The notes under the pieces were generated by a model that worked only from the letters and a program-made list of their open reading frames with translations, was not told where the DNA came from and made no database searches. DNA of 64,000 nt, taken from positions 1-64,000 of the forward strand of contig NZ_JAAVTX010000002.1 in the NCBI RefSeq assembly GCF_012163145.1, read 5' to 3'. Position numbers and translations under genes: made by a program. This document shows, in pieces, positions 49,507 to 64,000 of this stretch (its first letter is position 1; each line of letters begins with the position of its first letter). The stretch comes from Falsiroseomonas frigidaquae (lineage in GTDB: Bacteria; Pseudomonadota; Alphaproteobacteria; Acetobacterales; Acetobacteraceae).

Positions 49507-50262
49507 TCAGCGTCGATCCGTGGAAAGCGGGCGCAGCGTCGCGATCTTCTCCCGCATCAGGCGCAGGATGCCGCCGCGGCTGCGCCGCATGCGCGCGAGC
49601 GGCCCGCTGACGGCGACAGCCAGCGGGCGATGCCCTTCCGTCACCGGCAGGGCCATGCTCAGCATCATCGTATCCGGCACCACCGCGCCCTCGCTGCGCG
49701 CATGGCCCTGCACACGAATTTGCGCCAGCTCCGCCAGCAGCGGCGCCACCGCCAGCGGCACGGCGCCGCGCCCTGCATTGATGCGCCGCAGCAGCCGCGC
49801 CACCTCCGCGTCGCTCTGCTGTGCCAGCAGCACCTTGCCGGCGGCAGGCAGGAAGATCGGCCGGCGCGAGCCGGGCTTGATGTGGAAGCGCACCGGGCGG
49901 ATGGATTGCAGGATGCGGATGTAGTCCACGTATTCGCCGTGCTGCATCGCCAGTACGATCGTCTCCCCCGTCTCCGCCTGCAACTCATCCATCAGGCGCG
50001 GGATGCCGCCTTCCTCGGCGAAGAAGCGATCGAAGATCCAGGTGCCGAGCACGGCGAAGCGGATGGTGGGCTGGTAGTCCCGCGCGCGTGGCTCGTATTC
50101 CAGGTAGCCCAGCGACAGCAGCGATTTCAGCAGGACCGAGGTCGAGCTCAACGGGAAGCCAAGCGCCGCGGCAACCTCCGTCACTGTGGCTGGCGCATGG
50201 CGATGGGCGAAGAACTCGAAGATCTCCAGCACCCGGCCCGCGGATTTCACCACGCCATCCAT
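49507..50262 (-). CDS. IclR-family transcriptional regulator (paired with second TauD-like gene)
   Basis: 251 residues. HTH T-V-T-E-V-A-A-A-L-G-F-P-L-S-S-T-S-V-L-L near 26-45, then IclR effector domain with D-Y-I-R-I-L. Divergent from the dioxygenase at 50382 (119-bp gap carrying a 12-bp palindrome). Likely local regulator of that gene and the two receptors after it. Confidence 0.9.
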   Translation of the reverse strand: MDGVVKSAGRVLEIFEFFAHRHAPATVTEVAAALGFPLSSTSVLLKSLLSLGYLEYEPRARDYQPTIRFAVLGTWIFDRFFAEEGGIPRLMDELQAETGETIVLAMQHGEYVDYIRILQSIRPVRFHIKPGSRRPIFLPAAGKVLLAQQSDAEVARLLRRINAGRGAVPLAVAPLLAELAQIRVQGHARSEGAVVPDTMMLSMALPVTEGHRPLAVAVSGPLARMRRSRGGILRLMREKIATLRPLSTDRR

Positions 50263-50317: not shown

Positions 50318-50381
50318 AACGGCGGTTGACCCGCGACCGGGGCTCGGGGAGCCTCCCGCGCAAGATGAGGGAGGATGCCCG

Positions 50382-51260
50382 ATGCAGGTCATTGCAAATC
50401 AGGGCGGAGTCGGCGCAACGGTACGCGGCGTGGACCTCGCCCGGCCGCTGACGGATGCCGATTTCCGCGCGCTGCTGCGCGCGCTTGGCACGCATGGCGT
50501 GCTCTGCGCGCCGGACCAGTCGCTGGAAGCACCGCAGATCAGTGCGTTGGGCAGCCGCTTCGGCACGCTGGAGCACAACGTCGCCAACATGTTCCACCCG
50601 GACGGCCATCCGGAGGTGATGATCCTGTCCAACGTGGTGCAGGACGGCAAGCCGGTCGGGCTGAACGATGCCGGCCAGGGCTGGCACACCGACATGAGCT
50701 ATTCCACGGAGATCGCGCTCGCCAACATCCTGCACGCCAAGCAGGTGCCGGTGCGCGACGGGCGACCGCTGGGCGACACGCAGTTCCTCGACATGCATGC
50801 GGCCTATGCGGATCTGCCGGCGGAGGTGAAGCAGCGCCTGGAAGGCCGCACCGCGATCCACGACTTCAACAAGTTCTGGGAGATGATGCGCCAGCGCCCC
50901 GGCTCCACCCGGCCACCGCTGACCGAGGAACAGCTCCGCCGCAAGCCGCCGGTGAGCCAGCCGATCTTCCGCACCCACCCCATCACCGGCCGCCGCGTGC
51001 TGTACTGCAACCCCGGCTATGCGATGCGGATCGAGGGCATGGAGGAGGCGGAGAGCGACGCCATGCTGGACTTCCTGTTCCGCCATCAGTCGCAGGAGAA
51101 GTACCTGTACTCGCATCGCTGGACGCCGGGCGACGTGCTGATGTGGGACAACATCGCCACGACGCACAACGCCGTCGCGGATTACCGTGCCGATGAGCCA
51201 CGCTACATCCTGCGCGTGCAGGTGATGGCGACACTGGACTACGCGCGCCTGGCGGCCTGA
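50382..51260 (+). CDS. TauD/TfdA-family 2-oxoglutarate dioxygenase (paralogue of the 44036 gene)
   Basis: 292 residues. Iron ligands G-W-H-T-D-M-S-Y and A-T-T-H-N-A, with D-E-P-R-Y (oxoglutarate Arg), and H-D-F-N-K-F-W as in the paralogue. GAGGGAGG ribosome site. First gene of the second IclR module; substrate probably related to that of the first. Confidence 0.91.
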   Translation: MQVIANQGGVGATVRGVDLARPLTDADFRALLRALGTHGVLCAPDQSLEAPQISALGSRFGTLEHNVANMFHPDGHPEVMILSNVVQDGKPVGLNDAGQGWHTDMSYSTEIALANILHAKQVPVRDGRPLGDTQFLDMHAAYADLPAEVKQRLEGRTAIHDFNKFWEMMRQRPGSTRPPLTEEQLRRKPPVSQPIFRTHPITGRRVLYCNPGYAMRIEGMEEAESDAMLDFLFRHQSQEKYLYSHRWTPGDVLMWDNIATTHNAVADYRADEPRYILRVQVMATLDYARLAA

Positions 51261-51298: not shown

Positions 51299-52270
51299 AT
51301 GAACATCACCAGGCGACAGGCCGGCGCGGGCCTGCTCGGCGCGCTTGCGCTGCCCGGATTTGCACGGGCGCAGAGCTTTCCGAGCCGCACCATCCGCCTC
51401 GTCGTCGGCTTCGCCGCCGGTGGGCCGACCGACGTCATCGCGCGCGTGGTGGCGCAGGACATGTCGGCCAGCCTGGGCCAATCCGTCATCGTTGAGAACC
51501 GCACGGGTGCGAATGCCCTGGTGGCGACGGAGGCGGTGGCGCGGGAGCAGGCGGATGGCTACACGCTGATGGTGACCACGCTGTCGCACAGCGTGAATTC
51601 CATCCTGCTGCCGAATGCGCGCTACCATCCGCTGCGCGACTTCGCGCCGGTCAGCCTGCTGGCCGTGCTGCCGCTGATCGCGGTGACCGGCGCCACCACC
51701 CCGTACCGCACGCTGGCGCAGCTTGTGGATGCGGCGAAGGCGAAGCCGGGCGAGGTGACCTATGGCTCCGCCGGCAATGGCGGCTCCGCGCATCTGGCCG
51801 CCGCGCTGCTGGCGGTGCAGTCCGGCACGGAGATGACGCATGTGCCCTTCCGCGGCAACGCGCCGGCGCTGACGGAGGTGATGTCGGGCCGCGTCTCCTT
51901 CATGTTCTATCCGATGATCGGCCTGGCGGATCACATCGCGCGCGGCTCGCTGCGCCCGCTCGGCGTATCCACCGCGGAACGCAGCCCGGATTATCCGCAG
52001 GTGCCGACGATGCGGGAGATCGGCTATCCGGGCTTCGAGGATTACAGCCAGGGCCTCGGCATCGCCGCCCCCGCCGGCACGCCGGAACCCGTGGTGGCCA
52101 GGCTCAACGCCGCGGTCCGCGCCTCGCTGGAAAAGCCGGAGACGAACCAGCGGCTGAAGTCGCTGGGCGCCATCGTCACCGCCTCCACCCCCGCGGAATT
52201 CGGTGCCTTCCTGGAACGCGACCTGGACCGCTGGCGCCGCGTGATCGAAGCGGCCAAGATCACGGGCTGA
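51299..52270 (+). CDS. Bug-family solute-binding protein
   Basis: 323 residues. Tat-like T-R-R-Q-A-G-A-G-L-L-G-A-L-A-L-P-G-F-A-R-A-Q signal; F-P-S-R-T-I-R-L-V-V-G-F-A-A-G-G-P-T-D, V-E-N-R-T-G-A-N-A-L-V, H-V-P-F-R-G. Periplasmic receptor for an organic acid, perhaps the dioxygenase substrate. GGGGGAG ribosome site; 38 bp after the dioxygenase. Confidence 0.92.
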   Translation: MNITRRQAGAGLLGALALPGFARAQSFPSRTIRLVVGFAAGGPTDVIARVVAQDMSASLGQSVIVENRTGANALVATEAVAREQADGYTLMVTTLSHSVNSILLPNARYHPLRDFAPVSLLAVLPLIAVTGATTPYRTLAQLVDAAKAKPGEVTYGSAGNGGSAHLAAALLAVQSGTEMTHVPFRGNAPALTEVMSGRVSFMFYPMIGLADHIARGSLRPLGVSTAERSPDYPQVPTMREIGYPGFEDYSQGLGIAAPAGTPEPVVARLNAAVRASLEKPETNQRLKSLGAIVTASTPAEFGAFLERDLDRWRRVIEAAKITG

Positions 52271-52304
52271 AGGCCGCGATCGAGGGCCAGGAGGAGACAC
52301 CGAC

Positions 52305-53273
52305 ATGCTGATGCGCCGCACTCTGCTGGGGGGCCTGGCCCTGCCGCTGGTCGCAACCCGGGCTCGCGCCCAGGTCTGGCCGGACCGGCCGGTCCGGCTG
52401 GTGGTGCCCTACGCCGCTGGCGGCCCGACGGACACGGTGGCGCGGCTGCTGGCGGAACGCCTCTCCGCCAGCCTGCCGCAGCGCGTGGTGGTGGAGAACC
52501 GCGCCGGCGGCGGCGCGCTGATCGGGACGGAGGCGGTGGCGCGCGCGCCGAAGGATGGCAGCACGCTGCTGTTCACCACCGTGGTGCATGCCGTGCACCG
52601 CGCGCTGCACGGCACACGGCTGACCTTCGATCCCACCGCCGATTTCGCGCCCGTGGCGCTGGTTGGCGTGGTGCCGCAGGTCATCATGGTGCCGCCCGAA
52701 AGCCCGGTGCGGGACGTGCCCGGGCTGCTGCGCTACCTGCGCGACGGCCAGCACGCCTATGGCAGCAGCGGTGCCGGCGGGTCCTCGCATCTCGGCGTCG
52801 AACTGCTGAAGAGCATGACGGGCGTGCGGGCGGAGCATGTGCCCTATCGCGGCACGGCGCCCGCCGTGGTGGACCTGATCGCCGGACGCATCGCGCTGGT
52901 GATGGACAGCGTCGCGACCGGTGCGGCGCAGGTGCGCGGCGGCACGCTGCGCGGCATCGCCACCACGGGCCCACGCCGTTCCTCCGCCCTGCCCGACCTG
53001 CCGACGGTGGCGGAGACGGTGCCGGGCTTCGCGGCCACAACCTGGAACGCCGTGCTGGCGCCCTCCGGCACGCCGGATGCGACGCTGGCAGCAATCTCGG
53101 AAGCCGTTACCGCCGCGCTGGGCGAGCCGGCCCTGCAGGCGCGCCTGACCGAGCTGGGCGTCGAGGTGCCGCCGGCCGCGGAGCGCAACATCGCGGCGGC
53201 ACGGCAATTCGTCGCCGCGGAAACCGCGAAGTGGGAGAAGCTGATCGCCGAGGCCGGCATACGCGCCAGCTGA
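52305..53273 (+). CDS. Bug-family solute-binding protein
   Basis: 322 residues. Signal M-R-R-T-L-L-G-G-L-A-L-P-L-V-A-T-R-A-R-A-Q; W-P-D-R-P-V-R-L-V-V-P-Y-A-A-G-G-P-T-D, V-V-E-N-R-A-G-G-G-A-L-I-G, H-V-P-Y-R-G-T. AGGAGGAG ribosome site. Tandem with the preceding receptor; the pair suggests two related ligands. Convergent with the DadA-like gene, 2-bp gap. Confidence 0.92.
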   Translation: MLMRRTLLGGLALPLVATRARAQVWPDRPVRLVVPYAAGGPTDTVARLLAERLSASLPQRVVVENRAGGGALIGTEAVARAPKDGSTLLFTTVVHAVHRALHGTRLTFDPTADFAPVALVGVVPQVIMVPPESPVRDVPGLLRYLRDGQHAYGSSGAGGSSHLGVELLKSMTGVRAEHVPYRGTAPAVVDLIAGRIALVMDSVATGAAQVRGGTLRGIATTGPRRSSALPDLPTVAETVPGFAATTWNAVLAPSGTPDATLAAISEAVTAALGEPALQARLTELGVEVPPAAERNIAAARQFVAAETAKWEKLIAEAGIRAS

Positions 53274-54649: not shown

Positions 54650-56257
54650 TCAGCGTTGGGTGCGCCGCACCGCCGTGGGGTCGTTCCGCTCATCCGCACG
54701 CGCGGTGTAGGTCAGGTCCCGGCGCATGGCCCACAGCGCGTTCTGCAGGTACAGCGGCACCAGCGCGACATCATCGATCGCGGCCAGGCTGGCCTGTTGC
54801 AGCAGGCGGTCGCGCTTGGCGTCATCCATCTCCCGCTCCGCCTCGCCGGTCAGCCGGTCCACCTCGGCGTTGCTGTAATGCGTGCGATTGGCGGCGCCAT
54901 GCCCACGGTCCCGGTTGCGGGTGCGGAGCACGGAGTTCAGCAGCACGGAGGCATCGCCGGTGGAGTTGCCCCAGGTCAGCAGCGCGGCCGGAAATTCCCG
55001 CCGCGTGGCGCGGCCGATGAAGGTGGCATAGGGCTGCGCCTCCACCGTCGTGCGCACGCCGATGCGGGTCCACATCTGGCCGATCGCCTGCACCACGCGG
55101 GAATCGTTCATGTAGCGGTCATTCGACCCCGCGAGGGTGATCTGGAAGCCCTGCGGATAGCCCGCTTCCGCCAGCAGGCGGCGCGCCGTATCCGCATCCG
55201 CCGTCGGGACCGGGTGGTTGTCGATATGGCTGAAGGCGCCGGGCGGCATGAACTGGCCAGTGGCGAGCGCGGCCTTCTGCATCACGCGTTCCACGATCAG
55301 GCGCCGATCGATCGCCAGCGACAGCGCCTTCCGCACCCGCTGGTCCGCCAGCGGGTTGCGCTGGAGCGGGCCGCCATCGGCGGCGGCCATCTGCGGCACC
55401 GGCGGCGTGCGTTCCGCATCGAGCGTGATGTACATGACGCGGAGGCTGGTGGTCTCCGCCACGCGGAAGCGGTTGTCAGCGCGCAGGCGGTCCAGGTCCG
55501 CGGTCGGGATCTGGTCGATGAAATCCACGTCTCCGGCCAGCAGGGCCGCGGTGCGCGCGCCGTCATTCGAGATCATGCGGTAGTTCACGCTGGCCCATTC
55601 GGGCTTCTCGCCCCAATAGGCCTCGTTGCGCGTCACCTCCAGCCGGTCTCCGGGCGTGTAGCTGGAGAAGCGGAACGGACCGGTGCCGATGGCGACCCGG
55701 CCACTGTTGAAATCCGCGGTCGTCGCATCCGCATGCAGCCGCCGGCCGAGCATGGGAACCTGGCTGAGATAGACCGGCAGCAGTGGCGAGGGCGCCCGCG
55801 TATACAGCCGCACGGTGCGTGCATCCACAACCTCCACCCGGCTGACGGGACGAATATGGGTGGTGAAGGATGCACCGGGCCCGGTGATGGTCGGGATGCG
55901 CTCCAGCGTGAAGGCAACATCATCCGCCGTGAAGGGCGTGCCATCATGGAAGCGGATGTTCTCGCGCAGCCTGAACTCCCAGCCCTCCTCGCCCATCGCC
56001 CGCCAGCTCTCGGCGAGCCCCGGGCGAAGCTGCGCCTGCGCGTCGGTGGTCAGCAGCGTGTCGAACAGCATTTGCGACACTTCGCTGTTGCTGCGCAGCA
56101 AATGGTAATGCGGGTCGATGGAGGAGACGGGCGAGCCGATGCCCATGTTGAGGGTCTGCGCGGCCGCCATCCCGGCGCTGAGCGGCAGCGCCGCCAGCGC
56201 CGCGATCACGTGGCGCAAGGCGCCGGACCGAGTGCTGCGACGAACATGTTGGCGCAT
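54650..56257 (-). CDS. ABC transporter substrate-binding protein, family 5 (DppA/OppA type)
   Basis: 535 residues, paralogue of the 46927 product: signal A-A-L-A-A-L-P-L-S-A-G-M-A-A-A-Q, V-S-S-I-D-P-H-Y-H, R-F-H-D-G-T-P-F-T-A-D-D-V-A-F-T, V-A-I-G-T-G-P-F-R. No membrane or ATPase partners here. GGGAGGGAA ribosome site before 56257. A TetR-type palindrome lies 56 bp upstream, matching two others nearby, so it belongs to that regulon. Confidence 0.92.
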   Translation of the reverse strand: MRQHVRRSTRSGALRHVIAALAALPLSAGMAAAQTLNMGIGSPVSSIDPHYHLLRSNSEVSQMLFDTLLTTDAQAQLRPGLAESWRAMGEEGWEFRLRENIRFHDGTPFTADDVAFTLERIPTITGPGASFTTHIRPVSRVEVVDARTVRLYTRAPSPLLPVYLSQVPMLGRRLHADATTADFNSGRVAIGTGPFRFSSYTPGDRLEVTRNEAYWGEKPEWASVNYRMISNDGARTAALLAGDVDFIDQIPTADLDRLRADNRFRVAETTSLRVMYITLDAERTPPVPQMAAADGGPLQRNPLADQRVRKALSLAIDRRLIVERVMQKAALATGQFMPPGAFSHIDNHPVPTADADTARRLLAEAGYPQGFQITLAGSNDRYMNDSRVVQAIGQMWTRIGVRTTVEAQPYATFIGRATRREFPAALLTWGNSTGDASVLLNSVLRTRNRDRGHGAANRTHYSNAEVDRLTGEAEREMDDAKRDRLLQQASLAAIDDVALVPLYLQNALWAMRRDLTYTARADERNDPTAVRRTQR

Positions 56258-56313: not shown

Positions 56314-56329
56314 CCGACCGATCGGTTGG
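56314..56329. promoter_or_regulatory. TetR-type operator, copy A
   Basis: CCGACCGATCGGTTGG, near-perfect palindrome, 56 bp before the receptor gene start (minus strand). Identical to copy B over at least 17 bp. Confidence 0.7.
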
Positions 56330-56440
56330 TTCCCGCAGACTATGCGCCCGCCGCCGCTGCCGCAAGCCATGAGGATGAAGGCGGGGCATGAGTCGGGGGC
56401 GTCTTGCGTGGCGATGCCGGATGACGCTATGCGATCAGCA

Positions 56441-56456
56441 CCGACCGATCGGTTGG
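56441..56456. promoter_or_regulatory. TetR-type operator, copy B
   Basis: CCGACCGATCGGTTGG, 54 bp before the Bug gene at 56511. With copy A it brackets the divergent space between two receptor genes. Confidence 0.7.
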
Positions 56457-56510
56457 TCCAGATGCGGCGCCGTCGAAGGAGCGTCGCCGGAACGGGGAAA
56501 GAGCATCGAC

Positions 56511-57518
56511 ATGACCGGAAAGCACCACGAGAAGGGTGGCATTGGCCGACGCGGCGCATTCGCGGCCGCTGCCTCGCTCGCCACCGCCGCCCTGCTGCCA
56601 CGCGGCAGCCTGGCGCAATCCTACCCGACCCGGCCGGTCCGCATGATCGTGCCCTTCGTACCAGGTGGCGGCGCCGACCTGACCGCCCGCTTCGTGGCGG
56701 AGCCGTTGGGCGCGGAGCTCGGCCAGACCGTGGTGGTGGAAAATCGCGGTGGCGCCGGCGGCACGATCGGCACCGCCGCCGTGGCCCAGGCCCCGGCGGA
56801 TGGGTATACGCTGCTGTACGGCACGCCGGGACCGCTGGTGACGAACCGCTTCCTGATGGCGAACCTGCCCTACGACCCGGACCGCGACTTCGCGCCGGTC
56901 AGCCTGCTGACGCAGGGCGCCTATCTGATGGTGGTGAACAAGGACGTTCCGGCGCGCAGCGTCTCGGATCTGATCGCGCTGGCGAAGGCGCGGCCCGGCG
57001 AGCTGACCTTCGCCAGCTCCGGCATCGGCGCGGGCAGCCACCTGTCGGGTGAATTGCTGTGCATGCAGGCCGGCATCCGCATGTCTCACGTGCCCTATCG
57101 CGGCACCGGCCTGGCGCTGCAGGATGTGGCGGCCGGGCGCGTGGACGTCTCCATCGACACCTACGGACCGATGATCCCGCTCATTGAGGCCGGCAATTTG
57201 CGTCCCATCGCCGTGACCAGCGCCCGCCGGTCGCCCGATCTGCCGAACGTGCCGACGGTGGCGGAGACGCTGCCGGGCTTCGAGGTGACGGTGATGAACT
57301 ACGTCTGCGTCCGCTCCGGCACGCCGCAGCCCATCATCCAGCGGCTGAACCAGGCGCTGGTGAAGGTGCTTGCGGACCCGGCGCTGCGTGAGAGAATGCG
57401 GGCGGCCGGCGCATCTCCGCCGGTCTCGAGCACACCGGAGGAACTGGGTGGCCTACTCCGAACCGAAGTCGCGAAGTGGGGTGAAGTCATCCGCCGCGTG
57501 GGCATCACCCCGCGCTAG
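56511..57518 (+). CDS. Bug-family solute-binding protein (TetR regulon)
   Basis: 335 residues. Twin-Arg signal G-R-R-G-A-F-A-A-A-A-S-L-A-T-A-A, then Y-P-T-R-P-V-R-M-I-V-P-F-V-P-G-G-G-A-D, V-V-E-N-R-G-G-A-G-G-T-I-G and H-V-P-Y-R-G-T-G. Start 56511 follows GGGGAAAG; the frame extends upstream across operator B, which argues against an earlier start. Its 3' end overlaps the TetR gene. Confidence 0.92.
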   Translation: MTGKHHEKGGIGRRGAFAAAASLATAALLPRGSLAQSYPTRPVRMIVPFVPGGGADLTARFVAEPLGAELGQTVVVENRGGAGGTIGTAAVAQAPADGYTLLYGTPGPLVTNRFLMANLPYDPDRDFAPVSLLTQGAYLMVVNKDVPARSVSDLIALAKARPGELTFASSGIGAGSHLSGELLCMQAGIRMSHVPYRGTGLALQDVAAGRVDVSIDTYGPMIPLIEAGNLRPIAVTSARRSPDLPNVPTVAETLPGFEVTVMNYVCVRSGTPQPIIQRLNQALVKVLADPALRERMRAAGASPPVSSTPEELGGLLRTEVAKWGEVIRRVGITPR

Positions 57519-58215
57519 GGCAAAGCCACGCCAGGTCGCCGCGCCCCTTGCGGCGGACGATCTGGCCGGCCTGCTGGGGCTTGACGGCAATGGCGAGGTG
57601 CCGAGCGGCCGCATCATCCAGATCTATGAAGTCGCCTGCCGGCAATTCGCGCAACGCGGCTTCGATGGCGTCTCGATGCGCGACATCGCCGCAGAATGCG
57701 GGATCTCGAAGGCGACGCTGTACCATTATTTCCCGGACAAGGATTCGATCCTGCGCCCACTCGCCATGGGCGCGACGAAATCGATCTACCTGCATGTGGC
57801 GCGGCATGATGATGTCACGCTGCCGGCGGTGGACCGGCTGCGGCGCTTCGTCGTGGAGACTGCGACCTTCTTCGAGGCCTTCCGCTGGGCCTGGATCGCC
57901 GGCTCCACCGCCTTCTGGTCGGATCCGGAGGCCAGGGCGCGCAAGGAACGCATCGCCTGGCGCGACCGTTACGAGCAGTTGCTGCGGGACATCCTGCAGG
58001 CCGGCATCGAGGCCGGGGAATTGCGCAGCACGGATGTGAAGATTGCCGGGCGTCTTGTGCTCGGCACGATCAACTGGATGCCGCGCTGGTACAACCCGGC
58101 CGGCCCGCTCAAGGCGCCGGAGATCGCAGGCCAGTTCTGCGACATGCTGCTGGATGGCCTGCGCGCCGAGGCGCCGAAGAAGGCGACGCGCCGCAACGTG
58201 AAGGCCGCGGACTAG
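57481..58215 (+). CDS. TetR-family transcriptional regulator (KstR2-like)
   Basis: 244 residues from GTG 57481. HTH F-A-Q-R-G-F-D-G-V-S-M-R-D-I-A-A-E-C-G-I-S-K-A, then T-L-Y-H-Y-F-P-D-K-D of the TetR core, and a helical ligand domain. The start is uncertain: GTG 57481 overlaps the Bug gene by 38 bp, an ATG at 57370 would overlap it by 149 bp. Predicted repressor acting on the three palindromes at 56314, 56441 and 58266; ligand is probably an acyl-CoA of the downstream pathway. Confidence 0.88.
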   Translation: MKSSAAWASPRARAKPRQVAAPLAADDLAGLLGLDGNGEVPSGRIIQIYEVACRQFAQRGFDGVSMRDIAAECGISKATLYHYFPDKDSILRPLAMGATKSIYLHVARHDDVTLPAVDRLRRFVVETATFFEAFRWAWIAGSTAFWSDPEARARKERIAWRDRYEQLLRDILQAGIEAGELRSTDVKIAGRLVLGTINWMPRWYNPAGPLKAPEIAGQFCDMLLDGLRAEAPKKATRRNVKAAD

Positions 58216-58265
58216 GCAAGGCGCATCTTCGCCACTTGCGCGACGCCCCGCGCGCGCATAGCCTC

Positions 58266-58281
58266 CCGACCGATCGGTCGG
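58266..58281. promoter_or_regulatory. TetR-type operator, copy C (perfect palindrome)
   Basis: CCGACCGATCGGTCGG, a perfect 16-bp palindrome 26 bp before the enoyl-CoA hydratase ATG, one base different from copies A and B. Likely controls the whole beta-oxidation operon. Confidence 0.72.
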
Positions 58282-58307: not shown

Positions 58308-59078
58308 ATGTCGTCGGATGTCGTGAAGCTGGAAGTCTCGGACTACGTGGCGGTGGCGACGCTGAACCGGCCGCCGGTCAATGCCGTGAATGCCGAGATG
58401 CGCAACCGCATCATCGAGATCTTCGACGAGGTGACGGACCGCGACGACATCCGCGTGGTGGTGCTGACCGGCCAGGGCAAGATCTTCTGCGCCGGCGCCG
58501 ACCTGAAGCAGCGGCCGGACCCGACCAAGGCCGGCACCTTCTGGCACCACAACCGCATCACGCGGGAAACCGGCAATGCCATCAAGGAATGCGCAAAGCC
58601 GGTGATCGCAGCGGTGAACGGCGCAGCGCTCGGCGCGGGCTTCGGGCTGATGGCCGCCTGCGACATCATGCTGGCCTCCGACACCGCCGTGTTCGGCATG
58701 CCGGAGATCGATGTCGGCCTGGCGGGCGGCGCCGCGATGATCAACGAGCTGTTCGGCAAATCCTATGCGCGCCGCCTGATGTTCACCGGGGACCGGCTAC
58801 CGGCCAGCGACCTGTACCGGCTCGGCGTCATCGATTCGGTCTGGCCGGTGGAGGAGCTGATGCCCGCCGCCATGGCGATGGCCACGCGCATCGCGCAGAA
58901 GAGCCCGCTCGGCATCAAATACGCCAAGAACAGCTGCAACATGGTGGAGCTGATGCCGGCGAAGGACGCCTATCGCTTCGAGCAGAACTTCACCTACGAG
59001 CTGGCGAAGACGGAAGATGCGAAGGAGGCCCGCGCCGCGCAGCTCGAGAAGCGCAAGCCCGTCTTCAAGGGCCGCTGA
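58308..59078 (+). CDS. Enoyl-CoA hydratase/isomerase (crotonase family)
   Basis: 256 residues. Oxyanion-hole segments C-A-G-A-D-L-K-Q and A-A-V-N-G-A-A-L-G-A-G-F-G-L, then D-I-M-L-A-S-D-T-A-V-F-G-M-P-E-I. Adds water to a 2-enoyl-CoA or isomerises it. AGGAGGAAG ribosome site. First of four coupled genes; ends one base before the dehydrogenase ATG. Confidence 0.9.
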   Translation: MSSDVVKLEVSDYVAVATLNRPPVNAVNAEMRNRIIEIFDEVTDRDDIRVVVLTGQGKIFCAGADLKQRPDPTKAGTFWHHNRITRETGNAIKECAKPVIAAVNGAALGAGFGLMAACDIMLASDTAVFGMPEIDVGLAGGAAMINELFGKSYARRLMFTGDRLPASDLYRLGVIDSVWPVEELMPAAMAMATRIAQKSPLGIKYAKNSCNMVELMPAKDAYRFEQNFTYELAKTEDAKEARAAQLEKRKPVFKGR

Positions 59079-59079
59079 G

Positions 59080-60252
59080 ATGGAAGTGGATTACGAGGCC
59101 TTCCGGCGCGAGGTGACGGAGTTCGCGCAGACGCGCTGCCCGCCCGAAATCCGCGCCGTCGTCGCCACCTATCGCAAGCTGTCGCGCAAGATCTGGCAGC
59201 CCTGGCAGCAGATCCTGCACGCGCATGGCTGGGGCGCGCCGAGCTGGCCGAAGCAGTTCGGCGGCACCGGCTGGGACCCGCAGCAGCGGCACATCTTCGA
59301 CGAGGTGATGGCGGAGAATGACTGCCCGCCGCAATACCATCACGGGCTGCGCCACATCGGCCCGGTCATCATCGAATTCGGCACGCCGGAGCAGCAGGCG
59401 CGCTTCCTGCCCGGCATCCTCAGCGGCGAGGACTGGTGGTGCCAGGGCTATTCCGAACCCGGCGCCGGGTCGGACCTTGCCTCGCTGCGCACCGCGGCGC
59501 GACGGGAGGGCGATGAATACATCGTGGACGGCCAGAAGACCTGGACCTCCCACGCGCATGAGTCGGATTGGATGTACACGCTGGTCCGCACCTCCAAGGA
59601 GGCGAAGAAGCAGCAGGGCATCACCATGCTGCTGATCCCGCTGAACTCGCCCGGCATCACCATCCGCCCGATCCGCACCATCGATGGCTGGCACCATGTG
59701 AACGAGGTGTTCCTCGACAATGTGCGCGTGCCGGTCGCCAACCGGATCGGCGAGGAAGGCAAGGGCTGGACCTATGGCAAGTTCCTGCTGGAGCGCGAGC
59801 GCCTCGGCGGCGCCAATGTCGCACCGGCGCTGAAGAACCTGGAGCGCACGCGCGAACTGGTCGCGCAGGAGTTGGCCGGCGAGACGCATCGTGCGAAGCG
59901 TGCGGCGCTGGAACTTCGGCTGCTGCTGGCGGAGGCGGAACTGCGCGGGGCGCTGGCGCTGGGCAAGGAAGCGGTGGCGGCGGTGATGGAAGGCCGGCCG
60001 CTCGGCCTGTTGCCCTCGGTGCTGAAGCTCTCCACCAGCGTCACGCACCAGCATGTGGCGGAGGTGGCTATGGATGCCGTCGGCGAACGGCTGGCGCCGC
60101 GCTTCCGCCGCATCGATGGCAGTGGGCCAAATGCCGAGGCGCCGGGCATCGAGTGGGTGCAGAACTACATGTATATGCGCGTGCGCACGATCTATGGCGG
60201 CAGCAGCGAGGTGCAGAAGAACGTGATCGCCAAGCAGCTTTTCGGGTCCTGA
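59080..60252 (+). CDS. Acyl-CoA dehydrogenase, large subunit-like
   Basis: 390 residues. FAD/substrate marks W-C-Q-G-Y-S-E-P-G-A-G-S-D-L-A-S, T-W-T-S-H-A-H, and late I-Y-G-G-S-S-E-V-Q-K-N. Oxidises an acyl-CoA to the 2-enoyl-CoA. Immediately followed (4 bp) by a second, shorter acyl-CoA dehydrogenase, so the two probably form a heteromeric enzyme as in pimeloyl-CoA dehydrogenases. Confidence 0.92.
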   Translation: MEVDYEAFRREVTEFAQTRCPPEIRAVVATYRKLSRKIWQPWQQILHAHGWGAPSWPKQFGGTGWDPQQRHIFDEVMAENDCPPQYHHGLRHIGPVIIEFGTPEQQARFLPGILSGEDWWCQGYSEPGAGSDLASLRTAARREGDEYIVDGQKTWTSHAHESDWMYTLVRTSKEAKKQQGITMLLIPLNSPGITIRPIRTIDGWHHVNEVFLDNVRVPVANRIGEEGKGWTYGKFLLERERLGGANVAPALKNLERTRELVAQELAGETHRAKRAALELRLLLAEAELRGALALGKEAVAAVMEGRPLGLLPSVLKLSTSVTHQHVAEVAMDAVGERLAPRFRRIDGSGPNAEAPGIEWVQNYMYMRVRTIYGGSSEVQKNVIAKQLFGS

Positions 60253-60256
60253 CGCC

Positions 60257-61327
60257 ATGCCCTTCACCGCAAGCCCGCTGGTCGGCGGCGATGCCTATGA
60301 GATGGCCCAGCGCCTGGCGCTCGAGGTCGATGCGGAGCTTTCCGCGCTGTCTGACGCGGGCGAGCAACTGGCCTGCCTGCGCCGGCATTGGGATGCCATC
60401 GCCGGCCTTGGCTGGATGGCGACCATGGTGGCCGAGGATGCGGGGGGCGCGGGCGGCGACCTGTCCGACGTCGCGGCGCTGGCCTGTGGTGCCGGGCGCG
60501 GCGGCCTGCCGCTGCCCATAGCCACCGCCTGCGTCGTCGCCCCTGCCCTGCTGGCCGCTGCGGGCGCGCGCGACATGCTCGCGCAGGTGGCGGAGGGTGC
60601 CGCGCGGATCTGCGTGATTCTGCCCGATGCCGCGCAGGATCCCGGCGCGACGAGGCTGAGCTTCGACCGGACGCTGGAAGGCGGCGTGGTCGGCGTGGAG
60701 ACACCGCCGGATCCGACGCATCTGCTGCTGGCCACGAAGGCGGGTGAGCTTCTGCTGCTGTCGGTCGACTCGCCCGGCATCACCCGAAGCCTCTCGATGC
60801 GGATCGACGGGCGGCTCGCCGCCGATTGGCATTTCGTGGGCGTGGCGGTGGCGCAGGAGCAGGTGCTGGCGCGCGGCATCGCCGACCAAGCGGATCGTGC
60901 CCGCGACCTCGGCGCGCTGATCACCTGCGTCGAGGGTGTCTCCGCCATGGGCGCGATCATTGAGCAGACCATCGCCTTCCTATCCGACCGCGTGCAGTTT
61001 AACGCGCCGCTCGCCTCCTACCAGGCGCTACGCCATCGCGTGGCGGAGATGTATGTGGAGTACGAGAACCTGCGCGGCCTGGTGGCGCATGCGCTGCGTG
61101 AGGCCGCGGCGACGGATGCGCTGCCCTGGCGCGATATCGCGCTGGCCAAGCTGCGGCTCGGCGAGGCCGGGCGTCTGGTGGCGCATGAGACCATCCAGAT
61201 GCATGGCGGCATGGGCCTGACCGAGGGTGTCGCCGCCATCCGCCTGGCACGCCGCGTGATGATGGCTGAGTTCGAGTTTGGCGACCGCAGCTTCCAGGCA
61301 GACCGCCTGCTGGCGCAGGTCGCGTGA
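60257..61327 (+). CDS. Acyl-CoA dehydrogenase, small subunit-like
   Basis: 356 residues. Diverged N-terminus, but the C-terminal helix bundle keeps A-Y-Q-A-L-R-H-R-V and Q-M-H-G-G-M-G-L-T-E-G-V. Such shorter partners often lack one catalytic function and complement the larger subunit. Same operon, 4 bp after the first dehydrogenase. The next gene starts at its stop. Confidence 0.88.
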   Translation: MPFTASPLVGGDAYEMAQRLALEVDAELSALSDAGEQLACLRRHWDAIAGLGWMATMVAEDAGGAGGDLSDVAALACGAGRGGLPLPIATACVVAPALLAAAGARDMLAQVAEGAARICVILPDAAQDPGATRLSFDRTLEGGVVGVETPPDPTHLLLATKAGELLLLSVDSPGITRSLSMRIDGRLAADWHFVGVAVAQEQVLARGIADQADRARDLGALITCVEGVSAMGAIIEQTIAFLSDRVQFNAPLASYQALRHRVAEMYVEYENLRGLVAHALREAAATDALPWRDIALAKLRLGEAGRLVAHETIQMHGGMGLTEGVAAIRLARRVMMAEFEFGDRSFQADRLLAQVA

Positions 61328-61338
61328 CGGGGACCACG

Positions 61339-63417
61339 ATGCACCAATTGGAGAAGATGTTCCGCCCCGCCTCGGTCGCGGTGATCGGCGCCTCGAACGA
61401 TCCCGACAAGCTGGGCGGCCGCACGCTGCTGCATCTGCGGGAACTCGGCTATCGCGGCCGCATCTACCCGATCAACGTCACCGCAAAGCAGGTCCAGGGC
61501 CTGCCCGCCTGGCCGAGCGTGCGCGACCTGCCAGAAGTGCCAGATTCGGCATTGATGCTGCTGCCCGCGCCGCTGGTGGAGCCGGCGCTGGAGGAATGCG
61601 CGGCGAAGGGCATCCTGCATGTGCAGGTGCTGTCCTCCGGCTTTGCCGAGGAGGGCGCAGAAGGGGCCGCGATGCAGGACCGCGTGGCGGCGCTGGCGCG
61701 CCGGCATGGCATGCGGATCACGGGGCCGAATGCGCTGGGCAGCATCAGCCCGCCGGATGGCTTCTTCGGCACCTTCTCCTCCCTGCTCGCCACCGCGCAG
61801 CCGGGGCCGGGCGTGATCGGCGTGGCCACGCAGAGCGGCGCCTATGGCAGCCACATCTACGCCGCGGCACATCTGCGCGGCATCGGTATCAGCCGCGCCA
61901 TCGCCACCGGCAACGAAGCCGATATCGATGTCGCCGCGGCCATCGACTACCTGGCGGAGGATGCGGGCACGCGGGTGATCTGCGCCTCGCTCGAAGGCTG
62001 CAAGGATGGCGCGGCGCTGCGGCGCGCGCTGCTGAAGGCGGCGGCGGCGCGCAAGCCCGTGATCATCATGAAGGTCGGCACCACGGAGGTCGGCGCCGCG
62101 GCGGCCGCCACGCATACCGGGTCGCTGGCCGGCGAGGATCGCATCTTCAGCGCGGTGTTCCGCGAATGCGGCGCCTATCGCGCCCAGTCGATCGAGGAGA
62201 TGATCGACATTGCCTATCTCTGCGCCATCGCGCCGCTGCCGCCGAATGATGCGGTGGGCGTGCTGACCGTCTCCGGCGGCATCGGCGTGCTGATGGCGGA
62301 TGCCTGCATCGAGGCGGGGCTCTCCGTGCCGCCGATGCCGGATGCCGCCATGGCGCGCATCCGCGAGATCCAGCCCGTCGCCGGCGGCCGCAACCCGATC
62401 GACACGACGGCGCAGCTCAATGGCCGCATGCATGTCTTCGAGGCGATCAGCCAGGAGATGCTGCGTGGTGCGGAGCTGGGCTGCTTCCTGTTCTACCTGG
62501 CGCATCTCGGCCGCAACGTGCCGCGCTTCCCGCCGCTGGAGCAGACGCTGGCCGCGCTGCGCCAGGCGGCGCCGGATCGGCTTGTCGTGGCGGTGATGAC
62601 CTCGGTCGAGGAAATCCGCACGCGGCTGGAAGCGCTGGGCGTGCCGGTGTTCGAGGATCCGACCCGCGCCGTGAAGGCGGTGACCGGCGCCGCGCGGCTG
62701 CGCGCCTTGCAGGCAGCGGCTACGGCGCCGAAGGATGTCGCAGCCGCCGCGCCCCGCCATGTCGCCGCGGGGAACGAGGCCGCGGCCAAGGCGCTGCTCG
62801 CCGAGATCGGCGTGAAGGTTCTGCCCGAGCACGTTTGTGCGGAAGCCGGGCAGGCCGTGCTCGCGGCAGACGCTGTTGGTTATCCCGTCGTGATGAAGAT
62901 CCTGTCCGACGACATCCCGCACAAGACGGAGATCGGCGGCGTGCTGCTGAACCTGCCGGATGCGGATGCGGTGCGGCAGGGCTTCACGACGCTGATGCAG
63001 CGCGCCGGCGCCGCCCGCCCGGATGCGAAGCTGGATGGCGTGCTGGTGGCGCCCATGGTTCGCGGCGGTGTCGAGACCATCATCGGCGTGCAGCGCGACC
63101 CGATCTTCGGGCCGATGGTGATGTTCGGCCTCGGCGGCGTCTCCGTCGAGCTGTTCCGCGACGTCGCCTTCGCCTCCGCGCCGCTGACGCCGGAACGTGC
63201 GGCGGCGCTGGTGGAGTCCGTGCAGGGCGCACGGCTGCTGGCGGGCTGGCGCGGGGCGCCGGCGCTGGACAAGGCGGCGCTGGTGCAGGCGCTGTGTGCC
63301 GTTGCCGCCTTCGCGGCGGCCCAGCCGGGGATCGAGAGCATCGAGATCAACCCCTTCCTGGTGCAGGCGCAAGGCGGCGTGGCGCTGGACGCGCTGGTGG
63401 CGATGCGCGCGCCGTAG
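61339..63417 (+). CDS. NDP-forming acyl-CoA synthetase (acetate-CoA ligase family)
   Basis: 692 residues. CoA-binding N-terminal Rossmann domain (S-V-A-V-I-G-A-S-N), succinyl-CoA-ligase-like middle with A-T-H-T-G-S-L-A-G (phospho-His), and a C-terminal ATP-grasp domain (P-V-V-M-K-I-L-S-D-D-I-P-H-K-T-E-I-G-G-V). Activates a carboxylic acid to its CoA thioester with ATP giving ADP and phosphate. ATG 61339 has GGGGA upstream; a GTG at 61324 (overlapping the previous stop) is an alternative start. Confidence 0.92.
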   Translation: MHQLEKMFRPASVAVIGASNDPDKLGGRTLLHLRELGYRGRIYPINVTAKQVQGLPAWPSVRDLPEVPDSALMLLPAPLVEPALEECAAKGILHVQVLSSGFAEEGAEGAAMQDRVAALARRHGMRITGPNALGSISPPDGFFGTFSSLLATAQPGPGVIGVATQSGAYGSHIYAAAHLRGIGISRAIATGNEADIDVAAAIDYLAEDAGTRVICASLEGCKDGAALRRALLKAAAARKPVIIMKVGTTEVGAAAAATHTGSLAGEDRIFSAVFRECGAYRAQSIEEMIDIAYLCAIAPLPPNDAVGVLTVSGGIGVLMADACIEAGLSVPPMPDAAMARIREIQPVAGGRNPIDTTAQLNGRMHVFEAISQEMLRGAELGCFLFYLAHLGRNVPRFPPLEQTLAALRQAAPDRLVVAVMTSVEEIRTRLEALGVPVFEDPTRAVKAVTGAARLRALQAAATAPKDVAAAAPRHVAAGNEAAAKALLAEIGVKVLPEHVCAEAGQAVLAADAVGYPVVMKILSDDIPHKTEIGGVLLNLPDADAVRQGFTTLMQRAGAARPDAKLDGVLVAPMVRGGVETIIGVQRDPIFGPMVMFGLGGVSVELFRDVAFASAPLTPERAAALVESVQGARLLAGWRGAPALDKAALVQALCAVAAFAAAQPGIESIEINPFLVQAQGGVALDALVAMRAP

Positions 63418-63474
63418 CGGCTGCCGTGGCACCGATGTTGCTTGGTCCCGCCAGGACTCAGCAACAGGGTGGCC

Positions 63475-64000
63475 ATGGCCTCGCTCTCCGACTCCCGCGC
63501 GCCCACCAACCCGGTTGCCGCGCGGCTCAATCCCGCCACGCGTTTCTTCAGCCTGCTGTGCGGCTGGTGGCTGCTCGGCTACAGCCTGCTGGTCTGCGCC
63601 GACCTGGTTGCGCGGCGCTATTTCGGCGTGTCGCTGCAGGGCACGGATGAGATCGGCGGCTATACGCTGGCGGCGCTGGCCGCCTTCGGCTTCGGGCATA
63701 CGCTGGTGGTGCGCCGGCATACGCGGATCGACCTGTTCCTGTCGCGCATGCCGGCCGTGGCGCGGTCCGTGCTGCATGTGGTGGCGGCGCTGGCCATCGC
63801 TGCCTTCGCGGTCTTCGCCGCCAGCCGCGGCTGGGCGGAGGTTGCGGACAGCATCGAGTTCATGTCCGTCTCCACCAGCCCCTTGCAGGTGCCGCTGTGG
63901 ATTCCGCAGGGCGTCTGGTTTGCCGGCCTGGCGCTGTTCGGCCTGGTGGCGCTGGTGCTGGCGATGCACGCGGCGTCGCTGCTGATGCGCGGCCGGGTGC
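63475..64000 (+). CDS. TRAP transporter small permease (DctQ family), cut by window end
   Basis: About 175 visible residues, no stop before the edge. A leading R-A-P-T-N-P-V-A-A-R-L-N-P segment, then four membrane segments; the family marks G-T-D-E-I-G-G-Y-T-L-A-A-L-A-A-F-G-F-G-H-T and R-R-H-T-R-I-D-L-F are clear. It assembles with a DctM large permease and DctP receptor, expected just past the window. Starts 58 bp after the synthetase gene, so it may import the acid that the operon degrades. Confidence 0.85.
   Translation, partial: MASLSDSRAPTNPVAARLNPATRFFSLLCGWWLLGYSLLVCADLVARRYFGVSLQGTDEIGGYTLAALAAFGFGHTLVVRRHTRIDLFLSRMPAVARSVLHVVAALAIAAFAVFAASRGWAEVADSIEFMSVSTSPLQVPLWIPQGVWFAGLALFGLVALVLAMHAASLLMRGRV

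Follow-up and report, generated by a model that had tools for sequence, protein, structure and literature searches.

A predicted PfmR-type TetR regulon joining two periplasmic receptor genes and a beta-oxidation operon in Falsiroseomonas frigidaquae

PfmR (TTHB023) of Thermus thermophilus HB8 is a TetR-family protein with a solved structure, 3VPR, assigned to it in the part of PMC10636190 drawn on here. According to the accessible sections of a second paper (PMC7022988), in-vitro selection gave the consensus (a/c)Y(g/t)A(A/C)YGryCR(g/t)T(c/a)R(g/t), the consensus site is bound with a dissociation constant (KD) of 2 nM, and the PfmR sites often cover mapped transcription starts; its putative targets reported there are acyl-coenzyme A (acyl-CoA) dehydrogenases, an acyl-CoA ligase-related protein and a beta-ketoadipyl-CoA thiolase. 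A repressor of comparable function, FadP of the Burkholderiales, is stated in the portion of PMC12543098 used here to control 12 operons in Ralstonia solanacearum. The present analysis concerns a stretch of 64,000 nucleotides of Falsiroseomonas frigidaquae (Acetobacteraceae; contig NZ_JAAVTX010000002.1, positions 1 to 64,000), referred to below as the window, in which three palindromic sites accompany a TetR-family gene, two periplasmic receptor genes of different families and genes of CoA-linked degradation. Judged from sequence comparison, they form a well-supported, though so far predicted, repressor regulon of the PfmR type. A local TetR regulon joining the two receptors to CoA-linked degradation had been proposed in the initial annotation, and the proposal is supported by the genome scan, by the sites of relatives and by the kinship to PfmR presented below, the binding itself being predicted.

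The three sites, designated operators 1 to 3, are the following.

56314..56329, minus strand: operator 1, preceding the family-5 receptor gene; exact match; minus-strand sequence CCAACCGATCGGTCGG
56441..56456, plus strand: operator 2, preceding the Bug and TetR genes; exact match
58266..58281, plus strand: operator 3, preceding the enoyl-CoA hydratase operon; perfect palindrome, fitting the PfmR consensus at 16/16 positions

Two copies of the palindrome in the gap between the receptor genes and a perfect version before the hydratase gene had been described earlier, and all three were found again; the first two, however, had to be corrected to imperfect palindromes, operators 1 and 2 (CCGACCGATCGGTTGG) being self-complementary at 14/16 positions and operator 3 (CCGACCGATCGGTCGG) fully so. 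The fit of operators 1 and 2 to the PfmR consensus is 15/16 each. The operators are separated by 56 nt from the start codon of the family-5 receptor (ATG 56257, minus strand), by 54 nt from that of the Bug receptor (ATG 56511) and by 26 nt from that of the hydratase (ATG 58308); the first two start codons are choices, because both receptor frames remain open further upstream. The genes of the locus are given below.

54650..56257, minus strand: family-5 solute-binding protein (SBP_bac_5, here SBP5), 535 aa; Pfam PF00496, E 7.9e-82
56511..57518, plus strand: Bug/TctC receptor, 335 aa; Pfam PF03401, E 2.2e-61
57481..58215, plus strand: TetR-family regulator of the PfmR type (TetR_N and TetR_C_24; PF00440, PF17932); start codon uncertain
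58308..59078, plus strand: enoyl-CoA hydratase/isomerase (ECH); PF00378, E 2.7e-53; NCBIfam NF005073 above cut-off
59080..60252, plus strand: acyl-CoA dehydrogenase ACADa; PimC-like, below the cut-off of that family
60257..61327, plus strand: acyl-CoA dehydrogenase ACADb; Pfam sees the C-terminal domain only; best NCBIfam scores IpdE2 and PimD, both below cut-off
61339..63417, plus strand: fused NDP-forming acyl-CoA synthetase (ACS; CoA-binding, Succ_CoA_lig and ATP-grasp_5 domains); alternative start GTG 61324
63442..64000, plus strand: DctQ, the small permease of a TRAP transporter (PF04290); DctM (PF06808) follows beyond the window

The TetR-family gene that had been noted between the sites was confirmed at 57481..58215, its product belonging to the family by both domains (TetR_N PF00440, E 7.5e-19; TetR_C_24 PF17932, E 4.6e-25), which score above the Pfam cut-offs. 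The gene has no ATG; among the plausible starts the one furthest upstream is GTG 57481, which lies within the end of the Bug gene, and a later GTG is possible. By sequence the closest solved structure is 3vpr (E 6.2e-34), followed by 4w1u, KstR2 (9.9e-19), and a profile of 32 sequences gave 3vpr at 7.3e-54 with the next structure at 6.5e-36. On this comparison the protein is a PfmR-type regulator, PfmR being its nearest relative with a solved structure. The curated KstR model NF033703 gave 22 bits against a cut-off of 280, and no KstR2 model appeared in that output.

A scan of the genome for the palindrome had been named in the initial annotation as the check on the regulon. In the 6,082,652 bases of the assembly (97.9% complete) the exact 16-mers occur at only 3 places, all at this module, with none in the reversed control and about 0.01 exact matches expected for each palindrome form from the base composition. 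The degenerate word YCGACCGNNCGGTYGR has six genome sites (7 forward matches, two of them overlapping; 4 forward matches in the reversed control), three in the window, three on a second contig, C14, and none elsewhere, so that the degenerate form is confined to two clusters of TetR and CoA-catabolism genes and is not scattered. Because the word was built from the known sites, finding these again proves nothing, and the test lies solely in the absence of further sites. When up to 3 mismatches were allowed, 7 palindromes were counted in the window against 3.5 expected, and 16/100 shuffles reached as high a count; only the counts of exact or near-exact palindromes are therefore informative.

Among 200 genomes of the family, exact matches were found at 11 places in 7 genomes, 9 of these places lying at the homologous gene module, and the reversed control matched in 2 genomes. 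An ortholog of the TetR protein (at least 55% identity) is present in 6/7 genomes with the exact palindrome and in 10/200 overall (hypergeometric 1.8e-8, or 3.0e-7 without the present genome). With one mismatch, 14 places in 14 genomes fall in TetR clusters, 13 at the module and 1 at the C14 cluster. In one genome (G175, contig C23; L055 about 6443) an exact operator precedes another NDP-forming acyl-CoA synthetase gene with a MaoC-type gene behind it, and this site fits as a possible distant member of the regulon. A search of plasmids returned 139 records with partial matches, none of which covered 80% of the query; of the 20 matches listed, those with an annotation were Bug-type receptors.

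Conservation of the sites with the genes was followed in relatives of the TetR protein. The scan of one genome per species (84,980 species) gave 329 relatives, of which the best 80 were kept, yielding 79 loci (L numbers below); 25 of these (L063-L087) belong to the Acetobacteraceae in the broad sense, with TetR proteins of 53-92% identity, and 9/25 are the same records as genomes of the family palindrome scans. The module SBP5/Bug/TetR/ECH/ACAD/ACAD/ACS was found repeatedly in the Acetobacteraceae, with a site before SBP5 in 10/11, before Bug in 11/12 and before ECH in 9/15 loci, the reversed controls giving 0/11, 0/12 and 1/15. When ten-base words were counted without any motif in the 200 bp ahead of SBP5, Bug or ECH, ACCGATCGGT ranked with the top words; it was present there in 12/15 loci of relatives and nowhere else in them. 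The sites also follow the genes through changes of order. Where Bug-TetR lies before ECH (the window, L063, L064, L066, L067, L069 and L070), the ECH operon has an operator of its own; in the Belnapia/Paeniroseomonas type (L080, L082, L083, L085, L086), in which ECH stands directly behind Bug and TetR comes last, the ECH operator is absent in 5/5 loci and the two sites in the SBP5/Bug gap are kept in 5/5. No SBP5, Bug or ECH gene of the module type turned up in L071 or L074, yet both loci have a site ahead of the TetR match, at 143 and 96 bp respectively (with the promoter pattern described below in L071 only), which points to the TetR protein as the binder. In all 7/7 Bordetella/Achromobacter loci among the 79, one operator, ACCGACCGGTCGGT, lies between a TetR gene (product 37-39% identical) and a divergent operon of two Bug genes, ECH, two ACAD genes and ACS, homologous to the module.

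Upstream of each operator in the window a promoter is predicted.

56337..56365, minus strand: predicted promoter of the family-5 receptor gene; -35 TTGCGG 56360-56365, -10 TAGTCT 56337-56342, spacer 17
56404..56433, plus strand: predicted Bug-TetR promoter; -35 TTGCGT 56404-56409, -10 TATGCG 56428-56433, spacer 18
58236..58264, plus strand: predicted promoter of the ECH operon; -35 TTGCGC 58236-58241, -10 TAGCCT 58259-58264, spacer 17

The pattern, defined as TTG, 18-22 bases and (C/T/A)TA ending at most 20 nt upstream of the operator, was present at 31/41 gene-oriented operators, a set of sites related by descent that includes the three of the window, compared with 1/41 for the flipped downstream flank and 0.4/41 for base-shuffled flanks. 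In the window the operators begin 2-8 nt past the predicted -10 boxes (2 nt at operator 3), so that the transcription start (+1) should fall at or in the operators. The site scan found no operator between Bug and TetR, that is, none directly before TetR, and autoregulation, if any, would therefore pass through the Bug promoter.

A number of results weigh against a regulon of this kind or restrict its reach. The expected site is missing before SBP5 in L077, before Bug in L069 and before ECH in six loci; five of the six ECH misses are those with ECH directly behind Bug, where no promoter of its own should be needed, and the L070 site, a perfect palindrome CCAACCGATCGGTTGG, fell under the threshold of the count and was scored as a miss for that reason. 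Seven of the 25 orthologs (L073, L075, L078, L079, L081, L084, L087) lack both a site within 300 bp ahead of TetR and any SBP5, Bug or ECH at the identity cut-offs, and L072 has a weak site match only; some of the site-less orthologs are represented by short stretches, and in L073 and L078 other Bug or ACAD genes are preceded by sites. At 10/41 operators the promoter pattern is absent, and a strict sigma-70 consensus scan found no promoter. With one mismatch allowed, 11 places in the 14 genomes lie outside TetR clusters, about as many as in the control (7 forward, 11 reverse), and one exact palindrome (G060) occurs in an unrelated place near reading frames that resemble transposases by eye. 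The number of independent events is overstated by the counts, because the loci share descent and nine records recur. Finally, SbtR, another TetR protein of Thermus, is reported in the cited part of PMC7022988 to bind some PfmR sites, so that the operator word alone cannot name its protein. In 31 more distant loci, mostly of Gemmatimonadota, no operator enrichment was seen: the best core score, 9/10, was reached in 3/31 (reversed control 0/31, shuffled 17/620), the search covering the distant loci other than the 16 numbered L123 and L127-L141. That search being unconvincing, the claim is limited to the Acetobacteraceae and to Bordetella/Achromobacter.

In three metagenome-assembled genomes of Gemmatimonadota (L110 9892, L106 5902, L099 5804), palindromes ending in CGTTCA, e.g. 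TTGAACGACCGTTCAA, were seen about 110-120 bp before the TetR match; perhaps they represent a shifted operator word.

With these points set against the evidence, we hold it quite probable that the adjacent TetR protein represses three promoters through the three operators and is released by an acyl-CoA of the pathway. In the mechanism envisaged, a dimer of the PfmR-type protein encoded at 57481-58215 would bind the three operators at the core GACCG-NN-CGGTY, just past the -10 boxes. Without inducer, RNA polymerase would be blocked at the transcription starts of the family-5 receptor gene, of Bug-tetR and of ECH-ACADa-ACADb-ACS, possibly extended by DctQM, and by repression of the Bug-tetR transcript the protein would limit its own synthesis. 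An acyl-CoA made by the pathway would bind the TetR_C_24 domain and release the repressor, and capture, activation and beta-oxidation would then be switched on together.

The second cluster, on contig C14, bears on the question of which protein reads the sites. Its order is site, thiolase, FadB-like protein, two acyl-CoA dehydrogenases, a Bug-like stretch, acyl-CoA synthetase and TetR, followed by a 20-bp site, CoA-transferase, ECH, hydrolase, site and Bug. The three sites (L035 9639; L036 2618 and 5549) precede the thiolase, CoA-transferase and Bug genes, and the TTG...TA pattern lies upstream of 3/3; one of them is a perfect 20-bp palindrome, TCGACCGACCGGTCGGTCGA, with two overlapping registers. 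The C14 TetR protein is 56% identical to that of the window, and the helix-turn-helix stretches, SMRDIAAECGISKATLYHYFPDKDS in the window and SMRDIAQECGISKATLYHYFPDKDS on C14, differ in one residue. This residue presumably lies outside the recognition helix by the usual limits of the latter, which would make the helices identical in both repressors, and cross-talk between the two is on that account likely. In L076 (10001-18686) a TetR protein of the C14 clade (support 100/98) stands at a window-type module with sites before SBP5, Bug and ECH; the arrangement resembles what an exchange of the repressors would produce. Roseomonas oleicola (L064) has genes of the C14 type next to genes of the window type. 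In the tree on which the clades rest, L088 and L092 are long-branched and of unusual make-up, and their placement was not used.

Among the alternatives, the one that survives best is that the window sites are read mainly by the C14 paralog, or by both repressors equally. The nearly identical helix-turn-helix, the three sites with a like core on C14 and the C14-clade protein found in L076 at a window-type module with the same sites speak for it; the TetR genes closer to that of the window, however, stay beside the sites in many relatives, and the 20-bp perfect palindrome hints at partial specialisation, so that this alternative is considered improbable. A related but distinct idea is that shared regulation, which is plausible for the window and C14 clusters, extends to a single six-operator regulon run by two PfmR-type paralogs with the same recognition helix, a tenable reading that nevertheless falls somewhat short of being probable. 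If it were true, the window cluster would supply receptors, acyl-CoA synthetase, dehydrogenases and hydratase, and C14 would add thiolase, FadB-like hydratase/dehydrogenase, CoA-transferase and further receptors. Since the two proteins would read the same core, one repressor could replace the other in the course of evolution, an idea suggested by L076. Each might also respond to a different acyl-CoA, and the periplasmic capture and degradation of one acid class would then be governed by a switch with two inputs.

Some TetR-family proteins act as activators, and it may be asked whether the adjacent protein is an activator or dual regulator at these sites. Operators placed 2-8 nt past the predicted -10 boxes are in a position suited to blocking, and PfmR, whose sites are placed similarly, is called a repressor in the consulted sections of PMC7022988; activation is accordingly judged very unlikely. 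Still less credible is an unlinked regulator that binds the sites while the TetR gene is a passenger sensing something else: many regulators read palindromes, and at a distance of about 6 kb there is a gene of the IclR family, but the sites and TetR stay together across differing gene orders, and L071 and L074 keep the site before TetR without the module genes. Least of all can the palindromes, self-complementary and GC-rich as they are, be taken for intergenic repeats or parts of an RNA structure, as they are few, have no exact copies elsewhere in the genome, lie downstream of promoter-like elements, track the genes through order changes, match a measured TetR-family consensus and coincide with no terminator-like site.

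Repression by the adjacent PfmR-type protein being preferred, the surrounding genes can be described in its light. The SBP5 gene is flanked by a DAO-type oxidoreductase gene and by Bug, neither of which is a permease. Bug and TetR are probably carried on one transcript. ACADa and ACADb miss the PimCD equivalog cut-offs (pimC_large 332 bits with 624 needed, pimD_small 81 with 653 needed), and ACADb may serve as partner subunit in a heteromeric enzyme. The ECH operon possibly continues in this genome into the DctQ-DctM TRAP permease genes; in the stretches analysed from the 25 relatives nothing reached 40% identity to them over 100 aa, and they were therefore left out of the conserved module. 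Two more Bug/TctC receptor genes are found in tandem close to the regulon (window 51299-53273), adjoined by the genes of a TauD-family dioxygenase (50373-51260) and an IclR regulator (49507-50262).

The substrate can be approached through the receptor and the dehydrogenases. The best match of the Bug receptor among solved structures is 5oei (E 1e-67), with BugD and a terephthalate receptor close behind; 5oei we take to be the dicarboxylate receptor AdpC. In the part of PMC8102459 drawn on here, AdpC is an orphan receptor for pimelate, and an adipate-bound structure is cited. ACADa scores best, below cut-off, with the PimC model, and the available text of PMC12543098 links C8-C12 dicarboxylic acids in beta-proteobacteria with a PimCD-like pair and reports that deletion of FadP improved growth on adipate. 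With a dehydrogenase resembling PimC and a Bug receptor of the dicarboxylate type, the substrate may be guessed to be a medium-chain dicarboxylic acid, a guess that we regard as rather doubtful; the inducer would, by a similar guess, be the acyl-CoA of a medium-chain dicarboxylic type.

Several Bug receptor genes occur near this locus alone, such bacteria have many, and few, to our knowledge, have known ligands. A shared and conserved operator predicts that both receptors serve the same pathway as the degradation operon, and the compound that lifts repression could offer a direct route to the receptor ligand. The type of switch is ordinary, yet it is well conserved with its genes; what makes it of interest is that receptors of two families would be brought together and that there is a second, paralogous trio of operators, which offers a natural paralog pair for the study of how specificity splits. 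No title describing such a regulon in Roseomonas-like bacteria, or the Bordetella module, was found in the literature searched, subscription papers being mostly outside its scope.

With regard to known systems, the locus resembles FadP, also a TetR-type repressor of beta-oxidation operons, in a likeness drawn from the available description; it differs in having three local operators together with a paralogous trio, i.e. six sites in two clusters. KstR2, the repressor of mycobacterial and rhodococcal catabolism, provides the next-best solved structure (4w1u, E 1e-18), below PfmR, and the best NCBIfam score of ACADb, below cut-off, is IpdE2. The inducer of KstR2 is a CoA thioester, and we know of no receptors in its regulon. 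The closest likeness remains that to PfmR, with the nearest structure (3vpr) and the same operator consensus; where PfmR sites are reported over +1 (in the sections of PMC7022988 cited above), the promoters predicted here would place +1 at or in the operator. In gene content, ECH, two ACAD genes and ACS stand behind operator 3, and TetR behind Bug at operator 2, in what would be two operons. The differences are that two periplasmic receptors of different transporter families also appear as targets, that the repressor gene apparently shares a transcript with a receptor gene, and that the host belongs to another phylum than Thermus, by which the PfmR operator word would be extended from Thermus to the Pseudomonadota.

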